From Pseudomonas tensinigenes (GTDB lineage: Bacteria; Pseudomonadota; Gammaproteobacteria; Pseudomonadales; Pseudomonadaceae), in contig NZ_CP077089.1 in NCBI RefSeq assembly GCF_014268445.2, forward strand, positions 4,943,501-5,007,500: DNA of 64,000 bases, written 5' to 3'. The position numbers were made by a program, and so were the translations under genes. Positions 1 through 17,097 of the stretch are shown one piece after another (positions within the stretch are counted from its first letter, which is position 1; every line of letters starts with the position of its first letter). Below the pieces are notes generated by a model. That model did no database searches, had not been told where the DNA came from, and was given only the letters and a program-made list of their open reading frames with translations.

Positions 1-668
1 ACGCCGGTGCCGTCGCGCCAACCACCTTTTTAAGGGAAGCCTATGTCAACAACGACATCAAGGTCCCCATGAAAACCTTGTGGTTCGGCATCGACGTCGA
101 CCGCACGCCGAAGCCGCAGCGAGACGCCGAACACATTCCAGTGATCGGTTTCATCGGCCAGATAGCACCGCACAAAGGTACAGATCTGCTGATTGATGCC
201 TTCAATCGCCTGCCAAAAGGCAGTGCAAGATTGCTGATCTATGGTCCGACCGACCAGGATCCGGCGTACATGGAAGAATTGAAAGCCAAAAGCGCCGGCA
301 CGCAAATCGAGTTCCGTGGCGTTTTCGAGAGCAAGGATATGGTCAATATCCTGCGCGACATGGACACCCTGGTGATCCCGTCACGCTGGTATGAAAACAG
401 CCCACTGGTGCTGTTGAACGCTCTGGCCACCCACACCCCTGCCCTGGTATCGGATGTGCGCGGCATGACCGAGTTTGTAGAGGCCGGGATAAACGGAGAG
501 ATATTTGATCGCGGCAGCGCCGAAGATCTTTATCGCAAGCTGTCGGCCTGGGTTGCCAACCCGCAAGCCCTTTACGATCTCGCGAAAACCACGAACTACG
601 AGAGGACGCCGGAAATCATGGCCCGAGAGACATTTGCCATGTACTCAAAGGCAACTGAATCAGCCTGA
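1..668 (+). CDS. Glycosyltransferase family 4, C-terminal part (5' end outside window)
   Basis: The reading frame is open from base 3 to the TGA at 666-668, with about 221 residues visible. The start lies upstream of the window, so the internal ATG at 69 is not taken as the start. What remains is the C-terminal Rossmann half of a GT-B enzyme: a GFIGQIAPHKG strand-loop, then a donor-binding stretch ENSPLVLLNALA. The second Glu of the usual EX7E motif is Asn here. It is clearly paralogous to the next gene, which has ENAPLVLLNALA. It probably transfers a sugar from a nucleotide donor onto a lipid-linked glycan at the cytoplasmic membrane, given its place in a surface-polysaccharide locus. The sugar cannot be read from the sequence. 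Confidence 0.85.
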   Translation, partial: AGAVAPTTFLREAYVNNDIKVPMKTLWFGIDVDRTPKPQRDAEHIPVIGFIGQIAPHKGTDLLIDAFNRLPKGSARLLIYGPTDQDPAYMEELKAKSAGTQIEFRGVFESKDMVNILRDMDTLVIPSRWYENSPLVLLNALATHTPALVSDVRGMTEFVEAGINGEIFDRGSAEDLYRKLSAWVANPQALYDLAKTTNYERTPEIMARETFAMYSKATESA

Positions 669-838: not shown

Positions 839-2248
839 ATGAAACAATTCATCACCATGCAATCTGATAAGCCATTGGCCATCGGCAAGCGCATCCTCTT
901 ATGCGTTCACCAGTTTTTTCCGTTTTTTTCTGCGGGAACAGAAGTCCTGACTCTATCGACCGCTCAAGCGCTAAGAGCACAGGGCCATCAAGTCGAAATC
1001 GTCACAGCAAAACTAGACGATATCGAGTCGCTAGAGCGTTCAACATACGTATACAAAGACTTTACTGTGCATCAATTCAACATTCCCTATGCACCGGGAA
1101 AGTTCTCCCGCACCCGAATGATCGACGAGTACCACAATGCTTCCATCTACCAGCCATTCAGAGTCCTTCTCGAACAACTCAAGCCGGATCTGGTGCATTT
1201 TTTTCATCTGAAGAACCTGACGATCGCAGCACTGAACGCTTGTTTTGACGAGAAAATACCGACGGTCTATACACCGACCGATTACTGGATAAGCTGTCGA
1301 TCCTGCCAACTAGTAAAGCCATGGGGAAAGGCTGAATGCACAGGCCCGAACTTGCTGGCCGGAAACTGCTTAAAACATGTTGCCATCAACAACAAAAAGG
1401 GAACAACTCGTACCCTGCTGGCATTGACACCTCAATTAATGTTTTCATCTATTGCTCTGACCGCCTCAACCCTTATCAACACTCCACTGAAACGACTTGT
1501 TTCCCCCTTGGTTGATTTGAGCAATAGAAAAAAAGTTATTACAGAAGCGCTATTAAAAGTCGACAGAATATTGCCGCCGACATTATTTATAGAAAAATTA
1601 TTGCTCCAGACGGGACTTCCACAAAGCAGAATCCAGCGCCTGAGGTACGGTATTCAACCACCACTGATTCACCCTAAAGAACCGGACCTTGCTACACCGA
1701 CTAAAACAACTGCAACCTTTGGCTTCATCGGTACGCTGACGGAACATAAGGGCTGCCACATCTTCATGCAGGCGATCAAATCGCTGCCGCACGTCAATGC
1801 CCGTTTTTTAGTTTACGGTGACAAACAACAATATCCGGAATACTTCAACACGCTCGAATCCATTATCCAGGAAGATAAGCGCGTCCGATTCATGGGCACT
1901 TTCCCCCATGAAAATATTGGCAACATCTTGAGTTCTCTGGACGCGCTGGTCATACCCTCGACATGGAGAGAGAACGCACCGCTTGTGCTATTGAACGCAT
2001 TGGCTTGCGGCACACCGGTCATTGCCAGTGATGTAACGGGCATAACGGAGTACTTGGGCAAGGACGATAACGTAGCTGTATTTGAGCCCGGTAACGCCCG
2101 ACAACTGGCACAACGAATAGAGTCTCGTCTTGCAATGGTAAATGACCCGGCCCACAATCAGAGCCAGGGAAGGATGGCAGGTGAATCGCTAGATGCCTAT
2201 GTGAATGTACTTTCAGGCGTTTATGCCGAACTCATCAAATCCTCATGA
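839..2248 (+). CDS. Glycosyltransferase family 4 protein
   Basis: This 469-residue GT-B glycosyltransferase starts at ATG 839; an in-frame ATG at 857 (MQSDKP) is a possible alternative. The N-terminal domain begins with LLCVHQFFPFFSAGTE, typical of GT4 enzymes. A cysteine-rich insertion (CRSC, then two further Cys) lies near residues 150-180. The C-terminal donor domain carries GFIGTLTEHKG and ENAPLVLLNALACG. As in the upstream gene, Asn replaces the second Glu of EX7E. The central part (about 1440-1620) is noticeably AT-rich compared with the core genes, which suits an O-antigen locus acquired by transfer. It probably adds one sugar to the O-unit or a related glycan; donor and acceptor are unknown. 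Confidence 0.9.
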   Translation: MKQFITMQSDKPLAIGKRILLCVHQFFPFFSAGTEVLTLSTAQALRAQGHQVEIVTAKLDDIESLERSTYVYKDFTVHQFNIPYAPGKFSRTRMIDEYHNASIYQPFRVLLEQLKPDLVHFFHLKNLTIAALNACFDEKIPTVYTPTDYWISCRSCQLVKPWGKAECTGPNLLAGNCLKHVAINNKKGTTRTLLALTPQLMFSSIALTASTLINTPLKRLVSPLVDLSNRKKVITEALLKVDRILPPTLFIEKLLLQTGLPQSRIQRLRYGIQPPLIHPKEPDLATPTKTTATFGFIGTLTEHKGCHIFMQAIKSLPHVNARFLVYGDKQQYPEYFNTLESIIQEDKRVRFMGTFPHENIGNILSSLDALVIPSTWRENAPLVLLNALACGTPVIASDVTGITEYLGKDDNVAVFEPGNARQLAQRIESRLAMVNDPAHNQSQGRMAGESLDAYVNVLSGVYAELIKSS

Positions 2249-2264
2249 ATAATTGGAATAAATC

Positions 2265-3203
2265 ATGAAATACGTAATTTTTGGCGGTGGTGGGTTTATC
2301 GGTTCTGCGATCGCGGACAAACTGCTGGAAGAAGGGCACAGTCTACGAATTTTCGAACGCCCTCGCGTGCCGCCCTACAGAGCGTTCGAACCCCACGAAA
2401 ACGTTGAATGGATCTCGGGAGATTTGCAGAGCAAACACGACCTTGAAGAAGCGATCACTGGCGTCGACGGCGTGCTCCATCTCGTTTCCACCACCCTGCC
2501 AAAATCTTCCAACGATGATCCCATTTATGACATTCAGACCAATGTCATCGCCACATTAAACATGCTTGACGTTATGGTTGAGCAGAACGTTCAGCAAATT
2601 GTTTTTATTTCATCAGGCGGAACCGTATACGGCAAACCTGTACAGTGCCCCTTGACTGAAGAGCACCCGACAGACCCTGAAGTCTCATACGGAATAAGCA
2701 AGCTGACCATTGAGAAATATCTCTATCTGTACAGCAAGCTTCATAAGATAAAGCCGGTCATTCTGCGTGTCGCCAACCCGTACGGTGAAAGACAAAGAAT
2801 CGAAACTGCTCAAGGCGCGATAGCCGCTTTCGTCAGCCGCGCAACCGCCGGCCAATCAATCGATATCTGGGGCGACGGTTCGGTGACTCGCGACTATATA
2901 TACATAAAAGATATCGCGAATGCATTTTCAAAAGCACTGAAGTATTCAGGGCCAAAAACCGTTTTCAACATTGGTTCTGGCGAAGGTACTGCACTCAGTA
3001 CTCTAATAGAACTTATCGAAAAAATTACCGACACGCCTGTCGCGAGAAACTTTCTTCCAGCGAGACCATTTGACGTCCCCGTTAATGTGCTGGAATGCTC
3101 TCTTGCTGAACGGGAACTGGGCTGGAAAGCAGAGTTTAGCCTTCAGGAAGGCCTGAAGCGCACGATTGCCTGGTATATCGAAAGCAAGCGCTCAACAAAG
3201 TAA
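2265..3203 (+). CDS. NAD-dependent epimerase/dehydratase (extended SDR)
   Basis: This 312-residue protein has an N-terminal nucleotide-binding motif GGGGFIGSAI and the catalytic YGISK (YxxxK) pattern. FISSGGTVYG supplies the catalytic Ser/Thr strand. These are hallmarks of nucleotide-sugar epimerases and dehydratases such as UDP-glucose 4-epimerase. ATG 2265 follows the previous stop by 16 bases, so the two genes are probably co-transcribed. It likely makes an activated sugar for the neighbouring glycosyltransferases. The exact substrate (UDP-Glc, UDP-GlcNAc or other) cannot be decided by eye. Confidence 0.88.
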   Translation: MKYVIFGGGGFIGSAIADKLLEEGHSLRIFERPRVPPYRAFEPHENVEWISGDLQSKHDLEEAITGVDGVLHLVSTTLPKSSNDDPIYDIQTNVIATLNMLDVMVEQNVQQIVFISSGGTVYGKPVQCPLTEEHPTDPEVSYGISKLTIEKYLYLYSKLHKIKPVILRVANPYGERQRIETAQGAIAAFVSRATAGQSIDIWGDGSVTRDYIYIKDIANAFSKALKYSGPKTVFNIGSGEGTALSTLIELIEKITDTPVARNFLPARPFDVPVNVLECSLAERELGWKAEFSLQEGLKRTIAWYIESKRSTK

Positions 3204-3490: not shown

Positions 3491-4714
3491 GTGAACGTTA
3501 AGCACAAATTGGACGCGCTGACGTCCCTGCGATTTTTCGCTGCTGCGATGATCGTGCTTACCCATGCGCACCCGATATTCGGGTCATTCGGGATTGCCGA
3601 GGCTGCTCCTCTGGGTCAGGGCGTTTCATTTTTCTTCGTGCTTAGCGGATTCATTCTGGCGTACAACTACAAAGACTTTTCAAAGGACGGGTCGATCAAG
3701 AGGTTTCTGGTTGCCCGGTTTGCCCGGGTCTGGCCGCTCCATTTAGTGACATGCATCATTTGGATAGGCCTGATTTTCCACTTTGACCGGTACACCTACT
3801 TTGGTGGCGAGACAGGCATGCTGCGCCTGATTTCAAACCTGACACTGGTCCAATCATGGATTCCACTGAAACTATGGGCCCTGTCATTCAATGGCGTGGC
3901 ATGGAGCATTTCCAACGAAATGTTCTTCTACCTTCTGTTTCCGCTACTCATCGGGTTGTGGAGCAAACACTGGGCCAAGCTGTTTTTTGCTGCAACCCTG
4001 GTTGTCGTGGCATTTATCTGGGCCGGTAACGCCTTGGAGTTGAAGTCTACCGACAATTACAACGGCGTCAGTTTGCTCGGAACCCTCTATTTCAACCCGC
4101 TGGTCAGGGTATTTGAATTCATGTTTGGTATTTTCCTGGCCAAGGTTTTCATGACGCCAGCGATTCATGAGTTCAAAGCCAGTCAATTGGGCTGGCTGTA
4201 TTTAGAGTTGATGGCACTTGGCTTGGTCGTCGCAGGCATGTTGCTGGCTGGCAACCCTACACGTATCGCCGATACATTTGGAACCGCCGCCGGTTACTAC
4301 TTCCAGCGGGAGGGTATCTGGCTCATTTGGGGAACGTTGATCCTCGTCTTTGCACTGAGCAAAGGGCCGATCGGGGCACTGCTCTCGACCAGACCGCTGG
4401 TGTTTCTGGGGGAAATCAGCTTCTCCCTTTACCTCGTTCACGCGATTCTGATCACATTCATTGAGCCATACACCGCAGCGATCAAGCCGTACGGGCTGAC
4501 TGGGTACGCAATATTCTGGATAGTAGCGCTCACATCATCGGCACTCCTCTATAAAGGCATTGAAGACCCTTGCAGGCATCTGATCATGAATGCCTGGGAT
4601 CGCCGTCACGCCTCCGTGAAGGACAACCTCAGATCCAGTTATGGTCCAGTTGCGATCAGTTGCGTACTGGTGCTGATTGCCACTGTCGCAGCCTTCCACT
4701 TGAACAGGTTCTGA
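3491..4714 (+). CDS. Acyltransferase family 3 (OafA/YrhL-like) membrane protein
   Basis: This 407-residue multi-spanning protein is read from GTG 3491, with TAGGAATT just upstream as a plausible ribosome site. It has the family-3 acyltransferase signature: LDALTSLRFFAAAMIVLTH near the N-terminus with the conserved His, then FFFVLSGFILAY. About ten hydrophobic segments follow. Members O-acetylate surface glycans such as O-antigen, using cytoplasmic acyl donors. It has no C-terminal SGNH domain, so it is the short form. It is followed almost directly by the small gene at 4717. It most likely decorates the glycan made in this locus; the target sugar is unknown. Confidence 0.9.
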   Translation: MNVKHKLDALTSLRFFAAAMIVLTHAHPIFGSFGIAEAAPLGQGVSFFFVLSGFILAYNYKDFSKDGSIKRFLVARFARVWPLHLVTCIIWIGLIFHFDRYTYFGGETGMLRLISNLTLVQSWIPLKLWALSFNGVAWSISNEMFFYLLFPLLIGLWSKHWAKLFFAATLVVVAFIWAGNALELKSTDNYNGVSLLGTLYFNPLVRVFEFMFGIFLAKVFMTPAIHEFKASQLGWLYLELMALGLVVAGMLLAGNPTRIADTFGTAAGYYFQREGIWLIWGTLILVFALSKGPIGALLSTRPLVFLGEISFSLYLVHAILITFIEPYTAAIKPYGLTGYAIFWIVALTSSALLYKGIEDPCRHLIMNAWDRRHASVKDNLRSSYGPVAISCVLVLIATVAAFHLNRF

Positions 4715-4716
4715 AC

Positions 4717-5178
4717 ATGAAAAAGTATTGGTTGCTCCCCGCCATAGCAATAATTGCCATCACCACCAGCATGGTTTACTCCATGGCAAGCATTGAAAAG
4801 TCAAAATCGGTCGATGGCAAAGTGATCTTCATCGACGGCACGACGATTTCCAATCTTAGCTATCAACCCACTGACACAGAGGACAAGCATAAGGTTGTAT
4901 TTTTCAAGCTCGTCCCCGGAACGCAGGCTGGTCTGATTTTCGCCATTCACCTGAATGACTCGAATCAAAAAATACTCATCAACGCGGGTGATTTCCCCCT
5001 GGCAAAATATTGCCAGGGCGACAAAGTTCTCGAATGCAGATTCCCTATCCCTGATAAAGCACTTGAACAATCCGAGACGCTGGGCATTGCCGCCTATGCG
5101 ATTCCCGGCCAATTGATTCAGATTCAGGAAGGCAGGGCGGACTGGGATGACCATCGCGCCATTTTCCCAACTCGCTAA
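4717..5178 (+). CDS. Hypothetical exported or membrane-anchored protein
   Basis: I do not recognise this 153-residue protein. ATG 4717 is chosen because it starts 2 bases after the acyltransferase stop and gives an MKKYW... sequence with a positively charged tip and a hydrophobic stretch (residues 5-24), as in a signal peptide or anchor. The longer frame from 4570 would overlap the acyltransferase by 145 bases and encode an implausible lead. The rest is soluble, with two Cys about 9 residues apart (YCQGDKVLEC) that could form a disulphide in the periplasm. Its position suggests a job tied to glycan acylation, but nothing in the sequence shows that. Confidence 0.7.
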   Translation: MKKYWLLPAIAIIAITTSMVYSMASIEKSKSVDGKVIFIDGTTISNLSYQPTDTEDKHKVVFFKLVPGTQAGLIFAIHLNDSNQKILINAGDFPLAKYCQGDKVLECRFPIPDKALEQSETLGIAAYAIPGQLIQIQEGRADWDDHRAIFPTR

Positions 5179-5534: not shown

Positions 5535-6995
5535 ATGCTGGCCAGCACTCAGGGAAGAACCCTCGTGACCGGCTCAGCTCCACCCCTTGTCGTTGACCTC
5601 GACGGCACTCTGTTGCGCTCCGATCTGTTGCTCGAAACCGGTATGGCCTTCTTGCGCAGTCACCCACTGCAATTGCTCAAGCCATTCAAATGGTTGGCCA
5701 ACGGCAAAGCCACGCTGAAATCAAGGCTGGCCAATGCGACTCATATCGATGTCAACGTTCTTCCATACAATCGGGAAGTTATCGCGCTGATCGAAACCGC
5801 CCGCAGTGCAGGTCGTTCGGTAGTGTTGGCGACTGCAAGCCATCACTCATTGGCCGAGCGCATTGCCGAGCATCTTGATTTGTTCGACAGCGTGCTGGCG
5901 TCCGACGAAAAGACCAATCTGTCGTCCCACCGCAAGCGAGATCTGCTGGTCGAGCATTATGGCGTGCAAGGCTTCGACTATATCGGCAACTCCCATGACG
6001 ATATCTCCGTCTGGGCCGCGGCACGAATGGCCTACGTGGTCGATCCGGAGTCCGGCGTCGAGCGTCGAGCGCGAGCTCAGGGTAATGTCGAACAAGTCAT
6101 TCGCACCGCACCGTCGGCCATCAAGGACTGGACCAAAGCACTGCGCCTGCATCAATGGATGAAGAACCTGTTGATTCTTGCTCCGATGCTGGCTGCGCAT
6201 CAGTTGACCAATTTGAACATGCTCTGGCAGAGCCTTATAGCGTTCCTGCTTTTCGGTCTGTGCGCTTCCAGCGTTTACCTGCTCAACGACCTGCTGGACT
6301 TGGCGGACGACCGCCATCACCACTCCAAACGTCATCGCCCGTTCGCGTCGGGACGACTGTCCATAAAGTTCGGACTGTTCGCGTTTCCTCTTTTATTGAT
6401 CACCGCGTTCACAGGTGCGGCGCTATTACTCCCCTGGGAGTTTTGTGGCGTACTGGCGGCCTATTACATACTCACGCTTGCGTACTCATTGTCACTGAAA
6501 CGGCAAATGGCCATTGACGTCATTGCGCTGGCCTTGCTGTATACAATCCGGATTATTGCCGGCGCCGCGGCCCTGAACCTGGAACTGACCTTCTGGATGC
6601 TGGCGTTTTCGATGTTCATGTTCCTGAGCCTCGCGCTGGTCAAGCGTTATGCCGAGTTACGTGAAGCCCGACGCAAGGGGCATACGGAAAAAACCCGCGG
6701 CCGCGGTTATTACCCCGACGACCTGGAAATGATTTCATCCCTGGGCGCCGCATCCGGCTACCTCGCTGTGATGGTACTTGCGCTGTATATCCATGATCAG
6801 GGTACCGTCGCACTCTATGCCCGGCCCCAACTGATCTGGCTGGCATGCCCATTGTTGCTGTTCTGGATTACCCGGATCTGGATGCTCACCCATCGCGGAC
6901 AAATGCACGATGACCCTGTTGTATTTGCCGTACGCGACCGAATCAGCCTGGTGGTAGGGGCGCTGTTCTGCCTCGTGTTCTGGGCAGCATCATGA
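5535..6995 (+). CDS. HAD phosphatase-UbiA prenyltransferase fusion (DPPR synthase-like)
   Basis: This 486-residue protein has two domains. The N-terminal third is HAD-type: DLDGT with Asp21 and Asp23, and later YIGNSHDD. The C-terminal two thirds are UbiA-type membrane protein: RLHQWMKN, then NDLLDLADDRHHHSKRHRPF from about residue 251, and VKRYAELREA. These match the decaprenyl-phosphate phosphoribosyltransferase (Rv3806c) pattern rather than UbiA of ubiquinone synthesis. Expected role: attach phosphoribose from PRPP to polyprenyl phosphate, with the HAD domain perhaps removing the 5-phosphate. The start is uncertain. ATG 5535 is given; GTG 5565, preceded by AGGGAAG, has the better ribosome site, and TTG 5478 is also in frame. 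The stop overlaps the next ATG (ATGA). Confidence 0.88.
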   Translation: MLASTQGRTLVTGSAPPLVVDLDGTLLRSDLLLETGMAFLRSHPLQLLKPFKWLANGKATLKSRLANATHIDVNVLPYNREVIALIETARSAGRSVVLATASHHSLAERIAEHLDLFDSVLASDEKTNLSSHRKRDLLVEHYGVQGFDYIGNSHDDISVWAAARMAYVVDPESGVERRARAQGNVEQVIRTAPSAIKDWTKALRLHQWMKNLLILAPMLAAHQLTNLNMLWQSLIAFLLFGLCASSVYLLNDLLDLADDRHHHSKRHRPFASGRLSIKFGLFAFPLLLITAFTGAALLLPWEFCGVLAAYYILTLAYSLSLKRQMAIDVIALALLYTIRIIAGAAALNLELTFWMLAFSMFMFLSLALVKRYAELREARRKGHTEKTRGRGYYPDDLEMISSLGAASGYLAVMVLALYIHDQGTVALYARPQLIWLACPLLLFWITRIWMLTHRGQMHDDPVVFAVRDRISLVVGALFCLVFWAAS

Positions 6996-8305
6996 GTTCA
7001 CCGCTGTTTTCCTGGGGCCTCTATCCTGCGGCCCCACAGACCGCTCACGGCTGCACCTGGAAAAGCGAAGTACCTCAGCAACTGGACTGCCTGAATTCCG
7101 AGTTCGGTAGCACCCTGGCATACGGCAATGGCCGTAGCTATGGCGATAGCTGTCTGGCCGACAGCGATCACGTACTGCACATGCGGACCTTGAATCGCTT
7201 TATCGAAGTCGATTGGCAACGGGGTGTTGTGACAGCAGAAGCAGGCATCACGCTCGCCGAGATCCTCGCCGTTGCCATCCCGCGGGGCTGGTTTCTGCCA
7301 GTAACACCGGGCACTCAGTTCGCTACGCTGGGGGGCGCGATTGCCAATGACGTGCACGGCAAGAACCATCATGTGCGCGGCACCTTCGGCAATCATGTGC
7401 GACGTTTGGGTTTGCAACGTCATGATCAGGATCTGCTGACCTGTTCGCCGGTCGAAGCTCCTGAAATGTTCGCTGCCACCATCGCTGGCCTGGGTCTGAC
7501 AGGGGTGATCATCTGGGCCGAGATCCAATTGATACCGATCAAGTCCTGTCAGATCGACAGCAGCGCGGTACGTTTTGACAATCTGGCGGATTTTTTCGCC
7601 TTGTCCACGGAACTGGACCACCAGCACGAGTACAGCGTCGCCTGGATTGACTGTCTGGCCAAAGGTGCGCAAGCCGGTCGTGGCGTATTTTTTGTGGGTG
7701 ATCATGCGGAATATGGCGCTAAAACCGTCGAAGAGCGCAGCAAGTTGTTCGTGCCGATCACACCTCCGATTTCGTTGATCAACAAACTTTCATTACATAC
7801 GTTCAATGAAGCGTACTGGCGAGTGCATCCCGCCACACAGACGCGCAAACGGGTGAATTACGAACCCTTCTTTTACCCGCTTGATCGAATTGATCACTGG
7901 AACCGGATCTATGGTCGTCGGGGCTTCCAGCAGTACCAATGCGTGATACCTCAGCCAGTGGCAGAGGTCGCCATTCGCGAACTTCTCAGCGCTATCGCAC
8001 AATCAGGCCAAGGTTCCTTTCTGGCCGTGCTCAAGCGTTGCGGGGAAATCACTTCGCCAGGCTTGCTGTCCTTCCCGATCCCGGGAACCTCGCTCGCCCT
8101 GGACTTCCCTCAAAACAAACACTTGGCCGCCCTGTTCGCACGCCTCGATGCCATCGTGCACGAAGCGGGTGGACGACTCTATCCGGCCAAGGATGCGCAT
8201 ATGAGCGGGAAAGATTTTCGTCAAGCCTATCCCGCCTGGGAGCGACTGGAAGCCCTTCGCGATCCCTCCCTGATGTCCCGCTTCTGGAAACGAGTGACAA
8301 AATGA
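6992..8305 (+). CDS. FAD-binding oxidoreductase, DprE1-like
   Basis: This 437-residue protein resembles decaprenylphosphoryl-ribose 2'-oxidase. The FAD domain shows YGNGRSYGDS (residues 44-53) and a long match around GGAIANDVHGKNHH (HGKNHH at 122-127). The C-terminal part has LLSFPIPG and RLYPAKDAH with Lys400, corresponding to DprE1 Lys418. The position of DprE1 Cys387, the benzothiazinone target, is Ala369 here. DprE1 oxidises C2 of polyprenylphosphoryl ribose to a keto intermediate, the first half of conversion to arabinose. The start overlaps the upstream stop and the stop overlaps the next start, so translation is probably coupled. VanA-like alditol oxidases are more distant relatives; the GGAIAxDxHGKNHH context favours DprE1. 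Confidence 0.9.
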   Translation: MSSPLFSWGLYPAAPQTAHGCTWKSEVPQQLDCLNSEFGSTLAYGNGRSYGDSCLADSDHVLHMRTLNRFIEVDWQRGVVTAEAGITLAEILAVAIPRGWFLPVTPGTQFATLGGAIANDVHGKNHHVRGTFGNHVRRLGLQRHDQDLLTCSPVEAPEMFAATIAGLGLTGVIIWAEIQLIPIKSCQIDSSAVRFDNLADFFALSTELDHQHEYSVAWIDCLAKGAQAGRGVFFVGDHAEYGAKTVEERSKLFVPITPPISLINKLSLHTFNEAYWRVHPATQTRKRVNYEPFFYPLDRIDHWNRIYGRRGFQQYQCVIPQPVAEVAIRELLSAIAQSGQGSFLAVLKRCGEITSPGLLSFPIPGTSLALDFPQNKHLAALFARLDAIVHEAGGRLYPAKDAHMSGKDFRQAYPAWERLEALRDPSLMSRFWKRVTK

Positions 8306-9042
8306 AACGAGTTTTGATTGTTGGAGCCACATCGGCCATTGCTACTGCGTGTGCCAGAATCTGGGCAGCCCAGGGCTGCGAGTTTTTCCTGGTCGCGCGC
8401 AACGAAGAAAAGCTGGAACAGACCCGTGCAGACCTGAGTGCTCGTGGTGCAAAATCCGTCACTATTCACATCATGGATGCCAACGACTTCAACGCGCATC
8501 CTGCGATGATCGACAGCTGCCTTGCTGCGCTGCACCAGATCGACATCTCCCTGATCGCCCATGGCACGCTGCCAGACCAGAAAGTCTGCGAGCAGGATGT
8601 CGATGTGGCGCTCAAGGAGTTTGCTAACAACGGCACATCCGTAATCGCTCTTTTGACCCTACTGGCCAATCAGTTTGAACGCCAACGCTGCGGTACGCTG
8701 GCTGTCATTTCTTCGGTTGCCGGTGATCGCGGACGTCCGTCCAACTATCTGTACGGTGCGGCCAAGGCTGCGGTCTCGAGTTTTTGCGAAGGCCTCAGAG
8801 CGCGCCTGTTCAAAGTTGGCGTACATCTGATCACCATCAAACCCGGCTTTGTGGATACCCCGATGACTCAAGGGTTACCGCTGCCTGCTGCGCTCGTAGC
8901 CAAACCCGAACAGGTGGCCAAGAGCATCGTCGCTGGTATCGAACGCAAGACTGCCGTCCTCTACACCCCCGGGTTCTGGGCACTGATCATGCTGATTATC
9001 CGATGCGTGCCTCAGGCAGTCTTCAAGAGGCTGAATCTTTGA
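8302..9042 (+). CDS. SDR oxidoreductase, DprE2-like
   Basis: This 246-residue short-chain dehydrogenase starts at ATG 8302, inside an ATGA overlap with the DprE1-like gene. It has the N-terminal cofactor motif GATSAIA, the strand VISSVAGDRG with the catalytic Ser, and YGAAK as the YxxxK pair. A hydrophobic C-terminal tail (FWALIMLIIRCVPQAVF) could hold it at the membrane, as with DprE2-type proteins. In the known pathway DprE2 reduces the 2-keto intermediate to polyprenylphosphoryl-D-arabinose. Pairing with a DprE1-like neighbour is the main reason for this call; the sequence alone would support only a classical SDR. Confidence 0.87.
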   Translation: MKRVLIVGATSAIATACARIWAAQGCEFFLVARNEEKLEQTRADLSARGAKSVTIHIMDANDFNAHPAMIDSCLAALHQIDISLIAHGTLPDQKVCEQDVDVALKEFANNGTSVIALLTLLANQFERQRCGTLAVISSVAGDRGRPSNYLYGAAKAAVSSFCEGLRARLFKVGVHLITIKPGFVDTPMTQGLPLPAALVAKPEQVAKSIVAGIERKTAVLYTPGFWALIMLIIRCVPQAVFKRLNL

Positions 9043-10004
9043 GCGAGGGCATTTATCTATCAGGCTGGAGATACAGAGCAGTCGTTCTGTCGATCGTCGC
9101 ATCAGCGCTGGGCTATCTGGGGTTTTCCTTGTGGGGCGGATGGGAGGCAGTCGTCAATGCCGTCGCCCAAGTCGGTTTAATGGGCGTCACCCTGGCGCTG
9201 TCGATGTCTTCGCTGAACTACGCCATAAGGTTTCTCAGGTGGCAGATTTACCTCAAGGCGCTCGGCCATCCGGTGCCCTGGCGTCCGAGCCTGAAAATCT
9301 ACCTGTCCGGCTTTGCCCTGACCACGACCCCCGGGAAAGCGGGTGAAGCCATGCGTGGCGTACTGCTTAAACCTTTGGGCGTGCCCTATGCGAAGAGCTT
9401 TGCGGCATTCTTCAGTGAACGGCTCAACGACCTGTTTGCCGTAGTGCTGCTTGCACTGTTCGGCCTGACACTTTACCCACAAGCGCTTCCTTTGATTATC
9501 GCGGGGGTCGTACTGGTCGGTGTGGTCTTTACCGGCTTGTCGCAGCGCAAGCTCATTGTGTACATGGCACAAAAGCTGCCTCGCGAAGGCGGCAACCTTA
9601 AAGCAATGGCCCGTCACCTGCTCAATGTTCTGCTAGAGGCACAGTTGTGTCACCGACCACTGACGCTGCTGGTCGCCACTCTGCTGACCGTGATGGCCTG
9701 GGGCGCAGAAGCGTTTGCCTTCTATTGGATACTCAATGCAATGGGGGCGGAAATACCGCTGACTTTTGCCATATTCGTGTATTCGGTTTCCATGCTTGCC
9801 GGAGCCCTCAGCTTCATGCCTGGCGGTCTGGGAGGCGCTGAAGCAGTGATGGTCGCCTTGCTCGTGTGGAAGGGCATGCCCGGCTCCGATGCTGTCGCTG
9901 CAACAGTGCTCATTCGGCTAGCCACCTTGTGGTTCGCTGTGGGAGTCGGTGCATTATTCCTGACCACCAGGAATCGGACCGAACTTCCCACCCAAAAAAC
10001 ATAA
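9039..10004 (+). CDS. UPF0104/lysylphosphatidylglycerol synthase-TM family protein
   Basis: This 321-residue integral membrane protein has about eight hydrophobic segments. It carries the family's FLRWQIYLKALG and GKAGEAMRGVLLKPLGV stretches and a C-terminal FMPGGLGGAEAVM. TTG 9039 is preferred as start: AAGAGG lies 8 bases upstream and the codon overlaps the previous stop as TTGA. ATG 9003 has no ribosome site and would overlap the SDR by 40 bases. The family includes the membrane half of MprF and YbhN, and some members are suspected of moving lipid-linked substrates. Here it may move or hold polyprenyl-linked arabinose, which is inference from position. Function is otherwise unknown. Confidence 0.85.
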   Translation: MSEGIYLSGWRYRAVVLSIVASALGYLGFSLWGGWEAVVNAVAQVGLMGVTLALSMSSLNYAIRFLRWQIYLKALGHPVPWRPSLKIYLSGFALTTTPGKAGEAMRGVLLKPLGVPYAKSFAAFFSERLNDLFAVVLLALFGLTLYPQALPLIIAGVVLVGVVFTGLSQRKLIVYMAQKLPREGGNLKAMARHLLNVLLEAQLCHRPLTLLVATLLTVMAWGAEAFAFYWILNAMGAEIPLTFAIFVYSVSMLAGALSFMPGGLGGAEAVMVALLVWKGMPGSDAVAATVLIRLATLWFAVGVGALFLTTRNRTELPTQKT

Positions 10005-10042
10005 TTTATTAATTCAACGACTTCTTTCAGGAGCGATTCATC

Positions 10043-12001
10043 ATGGGCGGTCAGGGGCAATTAGCGCGCAAAGGCCTTATTAGCGCGATCATAGTCATCG
10101 GACTATTGATCGCAATGGCGGTTGCGTACTACTTACGAAATCAGAATTACTCTGTCGATGACTCTTTCATTACCTATCGTTATGCCTTCCACCTGTCACA
10201 GGGTGACGGCCTGGCTTTTAACGTTGGGGAAAAGTACTACGGCACCACGGCAGCAGGTTACGCAATCGTTCTGGCTACATTCAACAAACTTGCGTCGACC
10301 CTTCATCTGGATTTGTCGACTCAAAACATTTCGGTCGCGATCTCTACCCTGGCGCTGCTCATCACGTCACTGTTCGCTTTTTGTATCTCTGCCAGACGCA
10401 GCTCGCCTGCCACGTCAGCACTAATGACGCTGGGGCTGGCAGTCTCCCTGTTCACCGCTTATTCGTTCAATGAGGTCGCAGGCCATGAAACCTATGCGTT
10501 CCTCGCGCTTGCTTTTGTAGGCGTTGTCCTCGCCAGCTATGAAAAAATGCTTGCGGCGGGAATCATTGTAGCCATTGCGACTACCTTCAGGCCCGATGCT
10601 GTGCTTTTCGCACCGATCATTTGCTGCGCCTACATGCTGTTCAACAATCTTGGCCTACGCCGCGCGCTCACCAACAAACAACTGATTCAGTTTGCGTGTG
10701 GCTTTTTCCTGATTGCAATTCCATGGTTGCTGTTCCTTTATAGTTACTACGGGCGCATATCACCGGGAACAATGGATGCAAAAAAAGCGCAAATACTTAT
10801 TGGCGGTTTCCCGACCTACAACCTTAAAAGCATCCTTGGTTATGTATCCAGCAGTATCAGCTGGATCGCTGGTGTAGCGATTTCAGTAGGTGTTGTTCTT
10901 TTCGGAATAAACCTGTTCAGCTCGAAAAAACCGGCCCCAACGGCATTCATCGAGAAACAACATTCCTTTATCGGGACATGCTGGCTGGTATTTCTGGTCA
11001 TCAGCATCGGTTTTTACATTTCAATCAACGTAACGTTCTGGAGATGGTATGGCATCCCGGCCGTTTTTTCGTTGATGATTATCGCTTTTTGCGGCTTCTG
11101 TGCACTGGCCGGCAAGAATAATGAAACCCAGACAACCAACGCCAAACCCGCCCTGTTCATTGCATTGTGCGCGGCAGTCCTGCTGGTGGCCAACATTGCG
11201 CATATCAAGTTCTGGCTAACCAGCGAGAACGTGAACCCACACACCAAAGCCTATTACGACATTGCGCAATACCTCAAAAAAGCAGAGCCCGATGGCACGG
11301 TTATCGAAATGGCCGAACCGGGCTCCTTTGGCATGCAACTGGGTCCAAAATTCACGGTTGTGGATGAACTTGGGCTTATTAGTCCTGGCGTCGCGACTGC
11401 ATTGCTGAAAGGCGATAAAACTTATACAAATCGAACATACAATCCGAAATACATCGTATGTAGCTGGGGCAGTTCTTACAGCGCCTGCACCATCCCTGAA
11501 ATCATCATGAATTATGACTTCGTGGGCGAGTTCGATGCCGATTTCTGGACGAAACTTCTCGGCCGCGGCGCTAAACTCTATCGCAAGAACACCTCGAACC
11601 TGCTGCCTATCGGGCAATATGTCAGTGACCCGGTGCTTGGAGACAAATACGGCATCGTCCGCCAAAACACCGAGCGCCAGACATTGTTCGTGCATCCTGG
11701 GGACACACCGACCTCCTTTAATCTGGAAGTGTCTAGCCTCATCACCAGCCCCGGCAAAACACTGCCAGTAGTGGTCGCCATCTCCAAAGGCGTTCCCGAC
11801 AGCGCAGTGGCCAGTGGTGGAGCGACCGCCGGCGTAACGATCTATCTGGATGGCAAAATTTTCAAGGAAAGAAGCGTTATCAAAGTGGGGACTTCGCTGT
11901 CTGTCGACCTTCCTTACTCAAAGGGCCGACCTTACAGGTTCTCCGTAGATAACAACGGAATGTCCAACAACAACTGGGTTGATCTGTCGGCCAGCTATTA
12001 A
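10043..12001 (+). CDS. GT-C type membrane glycosyltransferase (candidate arabinofuranosyltransferase)
   Basis: This 652-residue protein has an N-terminal membrane segment, then DDSFITYRYAFHLSQGDGL near residues 38-57. The acidic pair in the first periplasmic loop followed by FITYRY and GxGLxFN typifies a GT-C group that uses polyprenyl-phosphate sugars, including arabinofuranosyltransferase-like proteins. Ten or more hydrophobic segments run to about residue 400. A soluble, probably periplasmic C-terminal domain of about 250 residues follows (from about SENVNPHTKAYYDIA). Start ATG 10043 has CAGGAGCG upstream. As the last gene of the run making the presumed lipid-linked arabinose, it is the natural candidate to transfer that sugar to a glycan or protein. 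The acceptor is unknown. Confidence 0.82.
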   Translation: MGGQGQLARKGLISAIIVIGLLIAMAVAYYLRNQNYSVDDSFITYRYAFHLSQGDGLAFNVGEKYYGTTAAGYAIVLATFNKLASTLHLDLSTQNISVAISTLALLITSLFAFCISARRSSPATSALMTLGLAVSLFTAYSFNEVAGHETYAFLALAFVGVVLASYEKMLAAGIIVAIATTFRPDAVLFAPIICCAYMLFNNLGLRRALTNKQLIQFACGFFLIAIPWLLFLYSYYGRISPGTMDAKKAQILIGGFPTYNLKSILGYVSSSISWIAGVAISVGVVLFGINLFSSKKPAPTAFIEKQHSFIGTCWLVFLVISIGFYISINVTFWRWYGIPAVFSLMIIAFCGFCALAGKNNETQTTNAKPALFIALCAAVLLVANIAHIKFWLTSENVNPHTKAYYDIAQYLKKAEPDGTVIEMAEPGSFGMQLGPKFTVVDELGLISPGVATALLKGDKTYTNRTYNPKYIVCSWGSSYSACTIPEIIMNYDFVGEFDADFWTKLLGRGAKLYRKNTSNLLPIGQYVSDPVLGDKYGIVRQNTERQTLFVHPGDTPTSFNLEVSSLITSPGKTLPVVVAISKGVPDSAVASGGATAGVTIYLDGKIFKERSVIKVGTSLSVDLPYSKGRPYRFSVDNNGMSNNNWVDLSASY

Positions 12002-12453: not shown

Positions 12454-13428
12454 TTACTTTTTCGCAGCGGTGATAGTGCTATCAGCACATTGTAGAGGCT
12501 GCCACATTGCTGCATTGATCCAGCAAATACAGAAGAATAAAAACTTGTCACGCGCCCGCCGCCGACACTTCAAGGCACTCATTGAAAGCGATAGAAGTTG
12601 CAGCCTGCCCAACGCCCGCCATTGCAAAACAAAGGGGTGCACATCCAAACCAACCAGCGATGCGATGAGTTTGACTTGAGAGAACCACCATCCGTTGTTA
12701 ATGCTTTTGTACCGCGAAACAAGCGACTTTATTCCGGTATTAGCGCCGACCTGATTCCTCTCATGCTGGCGATAACGCAACGTTGAGCGAGAGTCGATAA
12801 ACCATTTATATCCCGCACTGCGCGCAAAGGCATAGACATACCAATCGTGCAGCGACACAGATTGAAGCCTCTCCCAAGTCTGAAGCATTAATGCCTTCAA
12901 CGGGTCGGCGACCTTGCGGCTCATCAGATAAGTACAGCCGGGACCAGCGGCCTCAAATAGATAATCCCACTCCACCTGAGACTGCGCCTTGTCCAACAGA
13001 AGCGTTTTGCCACTTGGCCAGAATGCGGTGACATTACTGGAATACGCATCAACGCCATGACTCTGCAGCATCCGGACAGAATGCTCGAGCTTGTCTGTAT
13101 CCCAGATATCATCCTGATCAGAGAACGCAACATAGTCATAACCGTCGAACGCGACGTCACGAATCAGGCGGAAAAAGTTGCGAGCAGCGCCTCCGAACAC
13201 CTCGGAGACAGGCAGAAGAACTATGTCGGAGTACTTCGCAGCGCTCGCGGCGCACCACTGCTCGGTACCATCAGTGGATGGATCGACACTGATGTAAATC
13301 GTCAAATCCACCGCCGTCTGGCGGCGAATTGACTCAATCTGTTCTTCTAGCCAGTGCACACCATTGTAGGCCGCCAGCAAAACAGCGATTCGGGGTTTTA
13401 CCGGCGTATGATTTTGGCGAGCACTCAC
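12454..13428 (-). CDS. Glycosyltransferase family 2 (rhamnosyltransferase-like)
   Basis: This 324-residue protein has the GT2 start VLLAAYNGVHWLEEQIESI and an acidic metal-binding stretch FSDQDDIWDTDKL. The start is GTG 13428, preceded by AAAGGA 7 bases upstream. It lies 29 bases downstream of rmlA, at the end of the rmlB-rmlD-rmlA run. Transfer of rhamnose from dTDP-L-rhamnose onto the growing glycan is therefore the likeliest role, though GT2 sequence alone does not fix the donor. It is cytoplasmic or membrane-associated, with no clear spanning segment. Confidence 0.87.
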   Translation of the reverse strand: MSARQNHTPVKPRIAVLLAAYNGVHWLEEQIESIRRQTAVDLTIYISVDPSTDGTEQWCAASAAKYSDIVLLPVSEVFGGAARNFFRLIRDVAFDGYDYVAFSDQDDIWDTDKLEHSVRMLQSHGVDAYSSNVTAFWPSGKTLLLDKAQSQVEWDYLFEAAGPGCTYLMSRKVADPLKALMLQTWERLQSVSLHDWYVYAFARSAGYKWFIDSRSTLRYRQHERNQVGANTGIKSLVSRYKSINNGWWFSQVKLIASLVGLDVHPFVLQWRALGRLQLLSLSMSALKCRRRARDKFLFFCICWINAAMWQPLQCADSTITAAKK

Positions 13429-13457: not shown

Positions 13458-14348
13458 TCAGCGATTAGTTGGCTCCAAGAGTTTCTGCAAGTACTGGCCA
13501 TAACCAGTCTTCTTCAGCGCATCGGCTTGGGCACCGAGTTGCTCAGCAGTGATCCAGCCGTTGTGGTATGCGATCTCTTCCAGGCAAGCCACCTTGAGGC
13601 CCTGACGCTGTTCGATGGTGTGTACGAAGTGACTGGCCTCAAGCAGCGAATCGTGCGTGCCTGTATCGAGCCAGGCAAATCCACGACCGAGCATTTCAAC
13701 ACTCAGCGTCTTTCTTTCAAGGTACGCACGGTTGACGTCAGTAATTTCCAACTCACCACGCTCAGATGGCTTGATGCCCTTCGCGATCTCGACGACGTCG
13801 TTATCGTAGAAGTACAGCCCGGTCACGGCGTAGTTGGATTTTGGCTTGAGCGGTTTCTCTTCAATACTCAGAGCACGGCCCGTTTCGTCGAATTCGACAA
13901 CACCGAAACGCTCTGGATCAGACACGTGATAACCGAAGACAGTAGCGCCTGTCTGCTGAGTGCTCGCAGAACGCAAATTGTCCGAGAAGTGCTGCCCGTA
14001 AAAGATATTGTCACCAAGAATCAGGCAGCAAGGATCTTTGCCAATGAACTCTTCACCGATGATGAATGCCTGGGCCAGACCGTCGGGACTAGGTTGTTCT
14101 GCATAGGTCAGCTTGATCCCGTAAACGCTTCCATCACCTAGCAATTTGCGAAAACAAGGCAAATCTTCCGGCGTGGAGATGATCAGGATTTCGCGCATCC
14201 CCGCCAGCATCAACACGGACAGCGGATAGAAGATCATCGGTTTGTCGTAGATCGGCAGCATCTGCTTGGAAACGCCAAGGGTCAGCGGGTGCAGGCGTGT
14301 ACCCGAACCACCAGCGAGGATGATGCCTTTACGATTTGTCGTGGTCAT
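13458..14348 (-). CDS. rfbA: Glucose-1-phosphate thymidylyltransferase
   Basis: This 296-residue RmlA/RfbA joins glucose-1-phosphate and dTTP to give dTDP-glucose, the first step of dTDP-L-rhamnose synthesis. The N-terminal nucleotide-binding motif [16 protein letters not shown] is intact, followed by [19 protein letters not shown]. Length is normal for the family. ATG 14348 overlaps the rfbD stop as ATGA, so the genes are translationally coupled. The order here is B-D-A, followed by a GT2 gene. Confidence 0.97.
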
Positions 14349-15238
14349 TTGTTCAGAACTTCCCTAAGCATTCGGTTCACACCACTTTGCCAATCCGGCA
14401 AGTGTAGATAAAATTTGGCACGTAACTTCTGGGTATCAAGACGTGAGTTCAGGGGCCGTTGCGCAGGAGTCGGGTAAGCAGTCGTGTCGATTGGATTGAC
14501 GGCCGTTACTGCAAGTTTTTCCCCATTGGCCTGAGCGAATGCAATGACATGAGCCGCATACCCATGCCAAGACACTTCGCCGCTGGCCGCCAAGTGATAA
14601 ACACCTGAAAGCTCCGGCTGCTGCAACGCCTGGCGAATGGCCAAAGCGCTTACATCCGCTATCAGATCAGCCCCTGTCGGAGCTCCGATCTGGTCCGCGA
14701 TAACATTCAGCGTTTCCCGGTCCTTTGCCAGCCGCAACATCGTCTTGGCGAAGTTGTTGCCGCGCGCTGCGTAGACCCAACTGGTCCGGAAGATCAGATG
14801 CTTGCAGCCCGACGCAATGATCGCCTGCTCGCCTGCCAGCTTACTCGCACCGTACTGATTCACCGGGCCGACAGCATCCGTCTCCAGCCATGGAACGGAA
14901 CCAGTACCATTGAAGACATAATCGGTTGAATAATGAACCAGCCAGGCATTCAGAGCAGCTGCCTCTTCGGCCAAGACCTGCATCGCCTGGCCGTTCACAA
15001 TGAAGGCCAGCTCAGCTTCTGATTCTGCCTTGTCGACTGCGGTGTACGCAGCGGCGTTGACGATGACATCGGGCTTGATCTGTCGGATCGTCGCACGCAC
15101 GGCGGCCAGATCGGCGAGATCACCACACAGCCCATCGGCAGTCTGGCGATCCAGCGCAATCAACTGACCAAGCGGCTCGAGCGAGCGCTGCAGCTCCCAA
15201 CCTACCTGACCGTTCTTACCCAGCAGAAGGATTTTCAT
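14345..15238 (-). CDS. rfbD: dTDP-4-dehydrorhamnose reductase
   Basis: This 297-residue RmlD/RfbD reduces dTDP-4-dehydro-L-rhamnose to dTDP-L-rhamnose. It starts [16 protein letters not shown] (GxxGxxG-type motif), has YSTDYVFNG, and carries the catalytic YGASK. ATG 15238 is chosen because it overlaps the rfbB stop (ATGA) and gives the family's usual start. The frame extends further upstream but would run into rfbB. Its 3' end overlaps rfbA by 4 bases. Confidence 0.97.
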
Positions 15239-16311
15239 GCCTTGTTCGAGCGATCCGCATAGTTCTGATCGATCCACTGCTGGTAGCTGCCGCTCTTCAC
15301 GTGCTCAACCCACTCAGCGTTATTCAGATACCATTCGACAGTCTTGCGAATACCAGTCTCGAAAGTTTCTTCCGGCGTCCAACCCAGCTCACGCTGAATC
15401 TTGCTCGCATCGATTGCATAACGCACGTCATGACCTGGACGATCCTGAACATAAGTAACCAGGCTGGCATGAGGGCGGTGGGGCGAATCAGGACGCAACT
15501 CATCGAGCAACGCACACAGGGTATGCACCACTTCGATGTTTTGTTTCTCGTTATGACCACCGATATTGTAAGTCTCACCGATGACGCCTTCGGTCACGAC
15601 TTTGTACAACGCGCGCGCGTGATCTTCGACATACAACCAGTCACGAACCTGATTACCTTTGCCATACACCGGCAGAGGTTTGCCTTCCAGTGCATTGAGA
15701 ATGATCAGCGGGATCAGCTTCTCAGGGAAATGGCACGGGCCGTAGTTGTTCGAACAGTTGGTTACCAGAGTCGGAAGACCATAGGTACGAGCCCAAGCGC
15801 GAACAAGGTGATCAGAGCTGGCCTTGCTGGCCGAGTATGGCGAGCTTGGCTGGTAAGGCGTGGTTTCGGTGAAGAGGTCTTCCGGACCTTCGAGGTCTCC
15901 GTAAACTTCGTCAGTCGAAATGTGGTGGAAGCGGAAATTGGCTTTACGCGCATCATCCAGCGCAGCCCAGTAGTGGCGGGCAGCTTCAAGCAGCGTGTAC
16001 GTGCCGATGATATTGGTCTGGATGAACTCGGACGGACCGGAGATCGAGCGATCAACGTGGGATTCAGCGGCCAGATGCATGATTGCATCTGGCTGGTGCT
16101 CGCGCAGGACACGGTCGATCTGATCACGATCACAGATATCGACTCGTTCAAATGCGTAGCGCGAATTCTGGCTGACTTCTGCCAAGGACTCCAGATTGCC
16201 GGCGTAAGTCAGTTTATCGACGTTAACGACAGCATCGGACGTGTTGGAAATGATGTGACGGATGACTGCCGAGCCAATAAAGCCGGCGCCGCCGGTAACT
16301 AGAATTTTCAC
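15235..16311 (-). CDS. rfbB: dTDP-glucose 4,6-dehydratase
   Basis: This 358-residue RmlB/RfbB converts dTDP-glucose to dTDP-4-keto-6-deoxyglucose. It shows [19 protein letters not shown], then [23 protein letters not shown] and YSASK, all expected of the family. The start is GTG 16311 with AAGGG about 10 bases upstream; a longer in-frame extension reaches 16395 but lacks homology. It is the first gene of the rmlBDA-GT2 operon. The 220 bases upstream, to lapA, must hold the promoter. rmlC, the epimerase needed between RmlB and RmlD, is not in this window. Confidence 0.97.
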
Positions 16312-16533
16312 GCGAACGATACCCTTGAGCTGCGGACAGCGCTGCCGATGAGCGCTGTCTAATCCATGAATGCAGAAGCCACTCGCAGTTGGCATCTGTC
16401 AGAGTCAGTCTGAATCGACATGCAATAAGGCAAGATCGAACAAGGGACGCATTTTACAGCTTAATGATGGTTTTACTAATGGATAAAGACAGGCAGAGGC
16501 GCAATTTCGACAGACGCCCCGCCCCTTGCCGCT

Positions 16534-16800: not shown

Positions 16801-17097
16801 TCAAACCCCCTCCTCCTCTTCTTCGTTCACGCGATCACGCAACTCCTTGCCCGGCTTGAAGTGCGGAACGAATTTACCGTCCAGACTGACCGATTGACCG
16901 GTCTTGGGATTACGACCAACGCGCGGTGCACGGTAGTGCAGAGAGAAACTGCCAAACCCACGGATCTCGATACGATCACCGGTAGCCAGACATTGGGACA
17001 TTTGTTCAAGCATGGTCTTGATGGCCAACTCCACATCCTTGGATGAGAGCAGCCCTTGATGGGTGACAATTCGTTCGATCAACTCCGACTTCGTCAT
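16801..17097 (-). CDS. ihfB: Integration host factor subunit beta
   Basis: This 98-residue DNA-bending protein has the DNABII features: [10 protein letters not shown] start, [12 protein letters not shown], and the arm [14 protein letters not shown] followed by [13 protein letters not shown]. It pairs with IhfA to bend DNA at promoters and recombination sites. It ends in an acidic EEEEEGV tail typical of Pseudomonas. In this genus ihfB marks one border of the O-antigen locus, which fits the genes to its left. Confidence 0.97.

Follow-up and report, generated by a model that had tools for sequence, protein, structure and literature searches.

A UPF0104 (PF03706) membrane protein as candidate polyprenyl-phosphate-D-arabinose flippase in a Pseudomonas O-antigen locus

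Related systems and a five-gene cassette in Pseudomonas tensinigenes

Three-component pentofuranose systems have been defined by Kelly et al. (2024), with ORF12-15 of Citrobacter youngae O1/O2 as a described case, and DprE1/E2 homologues accompany glycans that contain arabinofuranose (Araf) (PMC11127046). Within Pseudomonas, the pilin of P. paraeruginosa carries D-Araf from a related pathway (PMC12369383), and P. syringae B728a has been named as having a homologous system (PMC12369383, PMC11127046). A flippase role has been suggested for membrane proteins of the UPF0104 (PF03706) family in archaeal glycosylation (PMC5898192) and, in the case of GpgF, for GlcN-PG, the latter role being not yet verified (PMC12713373). 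Here we analyse five genes at positions 5535-12001 of a 64,000-nucleotide stretch of Pseudomonas tensinigenes (the window; G000:C1:4943501-5007500 of a single-contig 6.62 Mb genome), in which predicted donor genes for polyprenyl-phosphate-D-Araf adjoin genes for a UPF0104 protein and a glycosyltransferase. The concept of D-Araf and pentofuranose systems is already published; new is the proposal that one PF03706 clade acts as an arabinose-lipid flippase, and a literature search, to which most subscription papers and the supplementary information of PMC11127046 were not open, found no publication linking UPF0104/PF03706 to arabinose lipids. An earlier reading made from the letters alone (the sequence-only reading) had given the UPF0104 protein no role, and it is in this protein that the new information lies.

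All five open reading frames (ORFs) are on the + strand, exactly where the sequence-only reading had placed them, and the order of families that it gave is confirmed by the ORFs and by Pfam and NCBIfam scans: a HAD phosphatase-UbiA fusion (5535..6995), a DprE1-like, putative FAD 2'-oxidase of polyprenyl-P-ribose (6992..8305), a DprE2-like short-chain dehydrogenase/reductase, the putative 2'-keto reductase (8302..9042), the PF03706 protein (9039..10004) and an AftB-like GT-C glycosyltransferase (10043..12001). The first four genes overlap stop to start, as also noted before, by 4 bases at each junction (ATGA, ATGA and TTGA, the probable TTG start of the PF03706 gene overlapping the DprE2 stop), and the GT-C gene starts 38 bases after the fourth gene ends. 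The G+C content is 0.56-0.57 in genes 1-4, 0.505 in the GT-C gene and 0.497 in the preceding stretch of GT4, epimerase and acyltransferase genes, a pattern that would fit a donor module moving as a block and joined to a locus-specific transferase.

Beside the observed gene order, families, conserved residues, predicted folds, PF03706/GtrA alternation and co-occurrence with DprE1, we set a pathway whose individual activities, sugar product, acceptor and flipping direction are all predictions. The HAD-UbiA protein would join phosphoribosyl pyrophosphate (PRPP) to polyprenyl phosphate, giving polyprenyl-P-ribose-5-P and then polyprenyl-P-ribose, and the DprE1-like and DprE2-like enzymes would invert C2 by oxidation and reduction to yield polyprenyl-P-D-Araf. 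These first two steps follow established knowledge of the mycobacterial families. The PF03706 protein would then flip the lipid-linked sugar to the periplasmic face, the job proposed elsewhere for GtrA proteins (Rv3789 in mycobacteria), and the AftB-like GT-C, holding the glycan by its CBM51-like domain, would move Araf to the O-polysaccharide exported by Wzm/Wzt. We consider it likely that in this way a four-gene donor module and a locus-specific transferase decorate the O-antigen with D-Araf on the outer side of the cytoplasmic membrane.

Compared with the system of Kelly et al. (2024), the cassette shares a HAD and UbiA polyprenyl-P-Ribf synthase (here one protein, with HAD at residues 19-158 and UbiA at residues 218-460), a GT-C with a C-terminal CBM (here in a predicted structure) and the O-antigen setting; however, the flippase there is called a MATE protein (four helices, EmrE-like), whereas the candidate here belongs to PF03706 and has an MprF fold, and the GT-C resembles AftB and ends in a CBM51-like domain. 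The donors used in that study were farnesyl-P-Ribf and farnesyl-P-Xylf (PMC11127046). Neither a MATE nor a GtrA protein is encoded by any of the five genes here. Because its flippase family differs from that of the prototype, we regard the system as a variant of the published D-Araf kind and not as a member of it. The mycobacterial decaprenylphosphoryl-arabinose pathway shows the same reaction order and homology in Rv3806c, DprE1 and AftB, but here the HAD phosphatase is fused to UbiA (mycobacterial Rv3807c is of a different structural family from HAD; PMC11127046), PF03706 takes the place of the GtrA protein Rv3789, and the acceptor would be O-antigen instead of arabinogalactan. The pilin system of P. 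paraeruginosa (PSPA7_6245-6251, TfpW) likewise has UbiA, DprE1 and DprE2-type donor genes in a Pseudomonas, but its phosphatase is separate (PMC11127046). With other PF03706 proteins (the MprF flippase domain, the C-terminal domain of archaeal AglD, GpgF) the fourth gene product has in common the Pfam family, an MprF-like fold and a proposed part in flipping lipids or lipid-linked sugars, yet it stands in a separate clade tied to DprE1, with polyprenyl-P-Araf as proposed substrate. GtrABC O-antigen glucosylation resembles the arrangement in combining conserved donor and flippase genes with a variable GT-C; there, however, the donor synthase is GtrB working from UDP-sugar, not a UbiA-type enzyme working from PRPP, and the flippase family differs.

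The PF03706 protein and GtrA beside DprE1

The product of the fourth gene matches PF03706 (LPG_synthase_TM) with 174.3 bits against a gathering cut-off of 33.4. Direct phmmer searches of this protein and of the GT-C against the Protein Data Bank (PDB) gave no match at E <= 1, so profiles and predicted models were needed for both. The model of the PF03706 protein has a pLDDT of 87.3, and all 6 PDB fold matches with E <= 0.001 are MprF.

DprE1 loci were gathered from two sources, namely the best 80 of 586 relatives in named GTDB species and 398 Pseudomonas genomes, 55 of which have DprE1, at 60 places (the 59 besides the window's own were fetched). From these 139 loci, 9 duplicates were dropped, leaving 130 distinct loci, and a further 17 with short flanks, leaving 113, in which PF03706 and GtrA were scored within -3.5 to +7.5 kb of DprE1. 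Every one of these 113 loci has DprE2 close to DprE1, and 109 have UbiA there too; because UbiA, DprE1 and DprE2 recur together, the cassette is not a chance assembly. PF03706 and GtrA tend to replace each other beside DprE1: 52 loci have PF03706 only, 47 GtrA only, 5 both and 9 neither (three representative GtrA genes were confirmed as PF04138 over cut-off), with a Fisher's p for exclusion of 6.5e-17 when descent is ignored. A quick tree of DprE1 with 114 rows needs no fewer than 16 changes of state for PF03706 and 14 for GtrA, and the observed phi of -0.756 was reached in none of 2000 simulations of independent traits on that tree (lowest, -0.59). An independent-pairs test over supported branches had only 5 pairs to work with, about 1.7 of them opposite, 0.1 the same and 3.2 without difference, and was not significant (median p 0.5). 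If PF03706 stands in for GtrA, this also argues that GtrA proteins such as Rv3789 act at flipping and not as an anchor, and with two membrane families alternating beside the same donor enzymes, the flippase question becomes testable in harmless bacteria.

Of the 57 loci with a PF03706 gene, 52 have it immediately beside the cassette (43 after DprE2, 8 before UbiA, 1 before DprE1). The other five are the loci with both families; in these, PF03706 is adjacent to GtrA and its start is 4.7-6.1 kb downstream from that of DprE1, and four of the five have an epimerase/amine-oxidase pair ahead of PF03706. Such a pair, an epimerase (PF01370) with a FAD amine-oxidase-like protein (PF01593), mostly followed by GtrA, also comes after the cassette in L005:14091-16715, L013, L023, L120 and other loci (L- and G-numbers are our labels for loci and genomes), with epimerase and oxidase clusters in 20 of the 80 named loci; one possibility is a further step of donor editing, which might lead to another furanose. 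In five Pseudomonas genomes (L173-L177), GtrA lies immediately upstream of a DprE1 of 45-47% identity, and UbiA is a separate gene on the other strand, which resembles the donor locus published for the pilin type. L173, the one of the five that was scanned, has a UbiA without HAD and a coproporphyrinogen oxidase gene downstream.

In a quick PF03706 tree of 94 rows, with long branches flagged and the window's protein present twice (also as L178), all 71 of 71 cassette rows and one further protein form a single clade (SH-aLRT 99); of the 58 PF03706 loci offered to this tree, 20 without a local-profile match, 4 fragments and 2 identical sequences were left out. The further member (L215) has no cassette in the 19 kb around it, and DprE1 is on another contig of the same genome (G428). 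Outside the clade falls a paralogue from the window's own genome (L179), which elsewhere holds three other PF03706 genes and one GtrA gene over cut-off. A second PF03706 protein of this genome (G000:C1:5392311-5393216), as strong a match as that of the cassette (171 bits), groups with other Pseudomonas proteins outside the cassette clade.

Co-occurrence with DprE1 extends beyond the loci chosen for having it. The fetched loci of 56 genomes sampled across the order gave ten carriers of the subfamily other than the window's genome; 10 of 10 also encode DprE1, in nine cases on the same contig and with gene starts no more than 3.1 kb apart. We also searched 274 gammaproteobacterial genomes that were drawn separately, not by DprE1, and that include the window's own, with a profile built from cassette proteins (A2, E <= 1e-30): 20 have the subfamily, 53 have DprE1 and 19 have both (hypergeometric p 2e-14, kinship ignored), or 18 of 19 subfamily genomes without the window's own. 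The two genes lie within 8 kb of each other in 13 of the 19 co-occurring genomes and on different contigs in 6, and the genome with no DprE1 match (G675) has a weaker subfamily match (145 bits). We assign the flippase step to the PF03706 protein because of its fold, the overlapping genes, the alternation with GtrA and the co-occurrence with DprE1, and on balance we lean towards this distinct clade being a dedicated polyprenyl-P-D-Araf flippase of Proteobacteria that replaces GtrA, with the donor-flippase block as a mobile unit paired with varied GT-Cs.

Predicted donor enzymes and the AftB-like transferase

Comparisons that the sequence-only reading had suggested came out in its favour for Rv3806c, Rv3790 (DprE1), Rv3791 (DprE2) and AftB. 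The first gene matches UbiA (PF01040, 70.9 bits), HAD (PF12710, 38.9 bits) and NCBIfam PRK08238 (687.6 bits, cut-off 351), and its best solved match is Rv3806c (PDB 8J8J; E 4.7e-30, residues 189-474), with an ND-D-D-KR-RP-A-G stretch kept between the two. By sequence, the fusion is probably a polyprenyl-phosphate 5-phosphoribosyltransferase with its 5'-phosphatase, which would make polyprenyl-P-ribofuranose.

For the second gene, which carries FAD_binding_4 and also matches the DprE1 model NF053785, the best solved match is mycobacterial DprE1 (E 1e-66, residues 41-418). Thirteen positions were examined among the 130 distinct relatives, and seven, those aligned with Y60, H132, K134, W230, Q336, K367 and K418 of Mycobacterium tuberculosis (Mtb) DprE1, are identical in all 130; we take these to be active-site residues. 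The position of Mtb Cys387 (residue 369 of the protein encoded at 6992-8305) is Ala in 129 of the 130 relatives and Thr in one, and that of Mtb Asn385 is Ser in 104 and Thr in 26. The closest named DprE1 among the best 80 of 586 relatives is that of P. fluorescens HK44 (78% identical). Within the window's own genome, two partial matches (22.5 and 19.4 bits) were set aside as other FAD oxidases, and two DprE1 matches occur in each of 5 of the 55 DprE1-bearing Pseudomonas genomes (G085, G115, G161, G272 and G337, the pair in G337 lying about 12 kb apart). For the third gene, an adh_short protein, DprE2 (NF053786) is the second-best NCBIfam model, the first being the unnamed family PRK07102 (356 bits, cut-off 267).

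No Pfam family matches the GT-C. A profile of its family (A1) searched against the PDB found AftB (9dlf) at E 8e-6 as the sole sequence above noise (next, 0.13), and its predicted model (pLDDT 90.6) has AftB as top Foldseek match (E 7.5e-9). Fold searches with the same model place a CBM51-like beta-sandwich, proposed to bind glycan, at the C-terminal end (11597..12001, + strand; residues ~519-652). We propose that the GT-C is a periplasmic D-arabinofuranosyltransferase. AftB is implicated in terminal beta-Araf, and other examples of beta-linked side-chain Araf are stated to be lacking (PMC11127046); with an enzyme of the AftB kind, a side residue in beta linkage would be possible. The nearest named relative of the GT-C is in P. 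kribbensis (89% identical), its family is present in only 6 of the 130 other loci (weakly in five of these), and the closest cassette-linked GT-C in the fetched loci is that of Pseudomonas sp. PH1b (L006; 58% over 506 residues).

Locus setting, acceptor and alternative readings

Directly left of the window (L084), comEA-like, wbpM-like (PF02719), wbpL-like (PF00953) and epimerase genes lie on the minus strand, and genes for a GT2, Wzm (PF01061), Wzt with Wzt_C (PF00005 and PF14524), a 1209-residue protein and a GT4 on the plus strand. That GT4 (448 residues, PF00534/PF13692; L084:12822-14168) reaches into the window with its 3' part (1..668, +) and is followed, also on the + strand, by a second GT4 (839..2248; PF00534, 94.4 bits), an NAD-dependent sugar epimerase/dehydratase (2265..3203; PF01370, 173.5 bits) and an acyltransferase-3 family protein (3491..4714; Acyl_transf_3, PF01757, 92.2 bits). 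Right of the cassette, on the minus strand, lie a GT2 gene (12454..13428; PF00535, 52.8 bits) adjoining rmlA, then rmlA, rmlD and rmlB for dTDP-L-rhamnose supply (13458..16395; PF00483, PF04321, PF16363), LapA, ihfB (16801..17097; PF00216, 103 bits; name read from the translation), rpsA and cmk. Flanked by wbpM/wbpL-like and Wzm-Wzt genes to the left and by rmlBDA-ihfB to the right, the cassette thus belongs to an ABC-transporter O-antigen locus. The sequence-only reading had placed the cassette near GT4, acyltransferase and rml genes at the ihfB border and not beside a pilin gene, which is so, and the export and wbp-like genes just outside the window strengthen the O-antigen setting it had named. 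Gene context is also why we take O-antigen to be the acceptor, and the earlier suggestion of D-Araf on lipopolysaccharide or another surface glycan gains support at the level of sequence, both sugar and acceptor being predictions. A literature search for D-Araf in Pseudomonas O-polysaccharide returned no paper matching all terms. From the locus one would predict a Pseudomonas O-antigen bearing D-Araf, perhaps as a side branch of the AftB kind, and glycan engineering gains from it a donor module and a transferase with a CBM.

It is possible, though doubtful, that the PF03706 protein is a transferase partner or a regulator and that another protein, GtrA or a PF03706 protein encoded elsewhere, moves the lipid: the other PF03706 and GtrA genes of this genome could do so, nine loci have neither family near DprE1, and published views of mycobacterial Rv3789 differ, with both a flippase role and a role as anchor of AftA in print (PMC7389260, PMC7502851). 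An anchor would, however, be expected to follow the transferase, whereas the PF03706 gene stays with the donor genes across loci that differ in their GT-C; MprF gives its sole solved fold matches at the E-value used, and the membrane domain of MprF is described as needed for lipid translocation (PMC5898192). We give little credence to a final sugar other than D-Araf, be it another pentofuranose or another polyprenyl sugar as substrate. The second gene scores 361.2 bits with NF053785 (curated cut-off 500), the third 190.3 bits with NF053786 (curated cut-off 250) and the GT-C 19.2 bits with the AftB model NF041481 (curated cut-off 1050), and the residues aligned with Mtb W384, N385 and C387 differ from those of Mtb DprE1; these all weigh against the pathway as drawn. 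Yet the DprE1 and DprE2 cut-offs are likewise missed by a locus of the GtrA type that is similar to the pilin system in print (440.7 bits for DprE1, 211.8 for DprE2), and the steady company of DprE1, DprE2 and UbiA, the seven invariant positions and published surveys that tie DprE1/E2 homologues to Araf-containing glycans (PMC11127046) all speak for D-Araf.

If the sugar is D-Araf, it could still go to lipid A-core, an exopolysaccharide or a glycoprotein other than pilin, with the O-antigen neighbourhood incidental. In favour of this, the cassette is also seen away from any recognised O-antigen export gene, a Wzt-cluster gene having been found near it in only 10 of the 80 named loci (a lower bound, given flanks of up to 10 kb and simple gene calling); here, however, the cassette sits inside the locus, between export and glycosyltransferase genes and rml-ihfB, the locus with the closest GT-C in context (L006) also has it beside a Wzt_C gene, and a CBM51-like domain would suit a polysaccharide as acceptor, as it does for ORF12 (PMC11127046). 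We hold this unlikely. Arabinosylation of type IV pilin, finally, has its model in P. paraeruginosa, for which the related D-Araf route that the sequence-only reading named for Pseudomonas pilin is in print (PMC12369383), and the genome does encode one PF00114 pilin. This sole pilin gene is ~0.92 Mb from the cassette; because the P. paraeruginosa donor genes also lie away from their pilin gene (PMC12369383), distance alone is not decisive. Against pilin as target stand the absence of any glycosyltransferase from the six frames scanned beside pilA, the lack of a second GT-C copy in the genome (one match, at the chance level of E 0.38) and the architecture of the loci most like the pilin type (L173-L177), which pair GtrA with a separate UbiA and not HAD-UbiA with PF03706. 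To one side, pilA is flanked by pilB/pilC-like genes and to the other by BON and DUF748/AsmA genes; two more of the scanned frames match no family. We therefore rejected pilin as highly improbable and keep to O-antigen as the presumed acceptor.

The setting of L006 is alike in other respects, with a Wzt_C gene, a multi-domain glycosyltransferase, an epimerase 46% identical to that at 2265-3203 and preceding the GT-C, then the GT-C, the cassette and PF03706. A scan for promoters and terminators found 2 promoter-like sites (mean of shuffles, 5.0) and 10 terminator-like sites (mean of shuffles, 7.5), and these sites were given no weight. A phage origin of the cassette was set aside when a viral-contig collection, which covers part of the known phages, yielded no relative of DprE1. 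The 1209-residue protein directly after wzt (L084:9196-12825) has methyltransferase and GT4-type domains and might, as a guess, be a chain-termination enzyme. A frame of 202 codons (4570-5178), which matches nothing in Pfam or NCBIfam, overlaps the end of the acyltransferase gene; read from a later start codon, it would encode a shorter protein that looks secreted.

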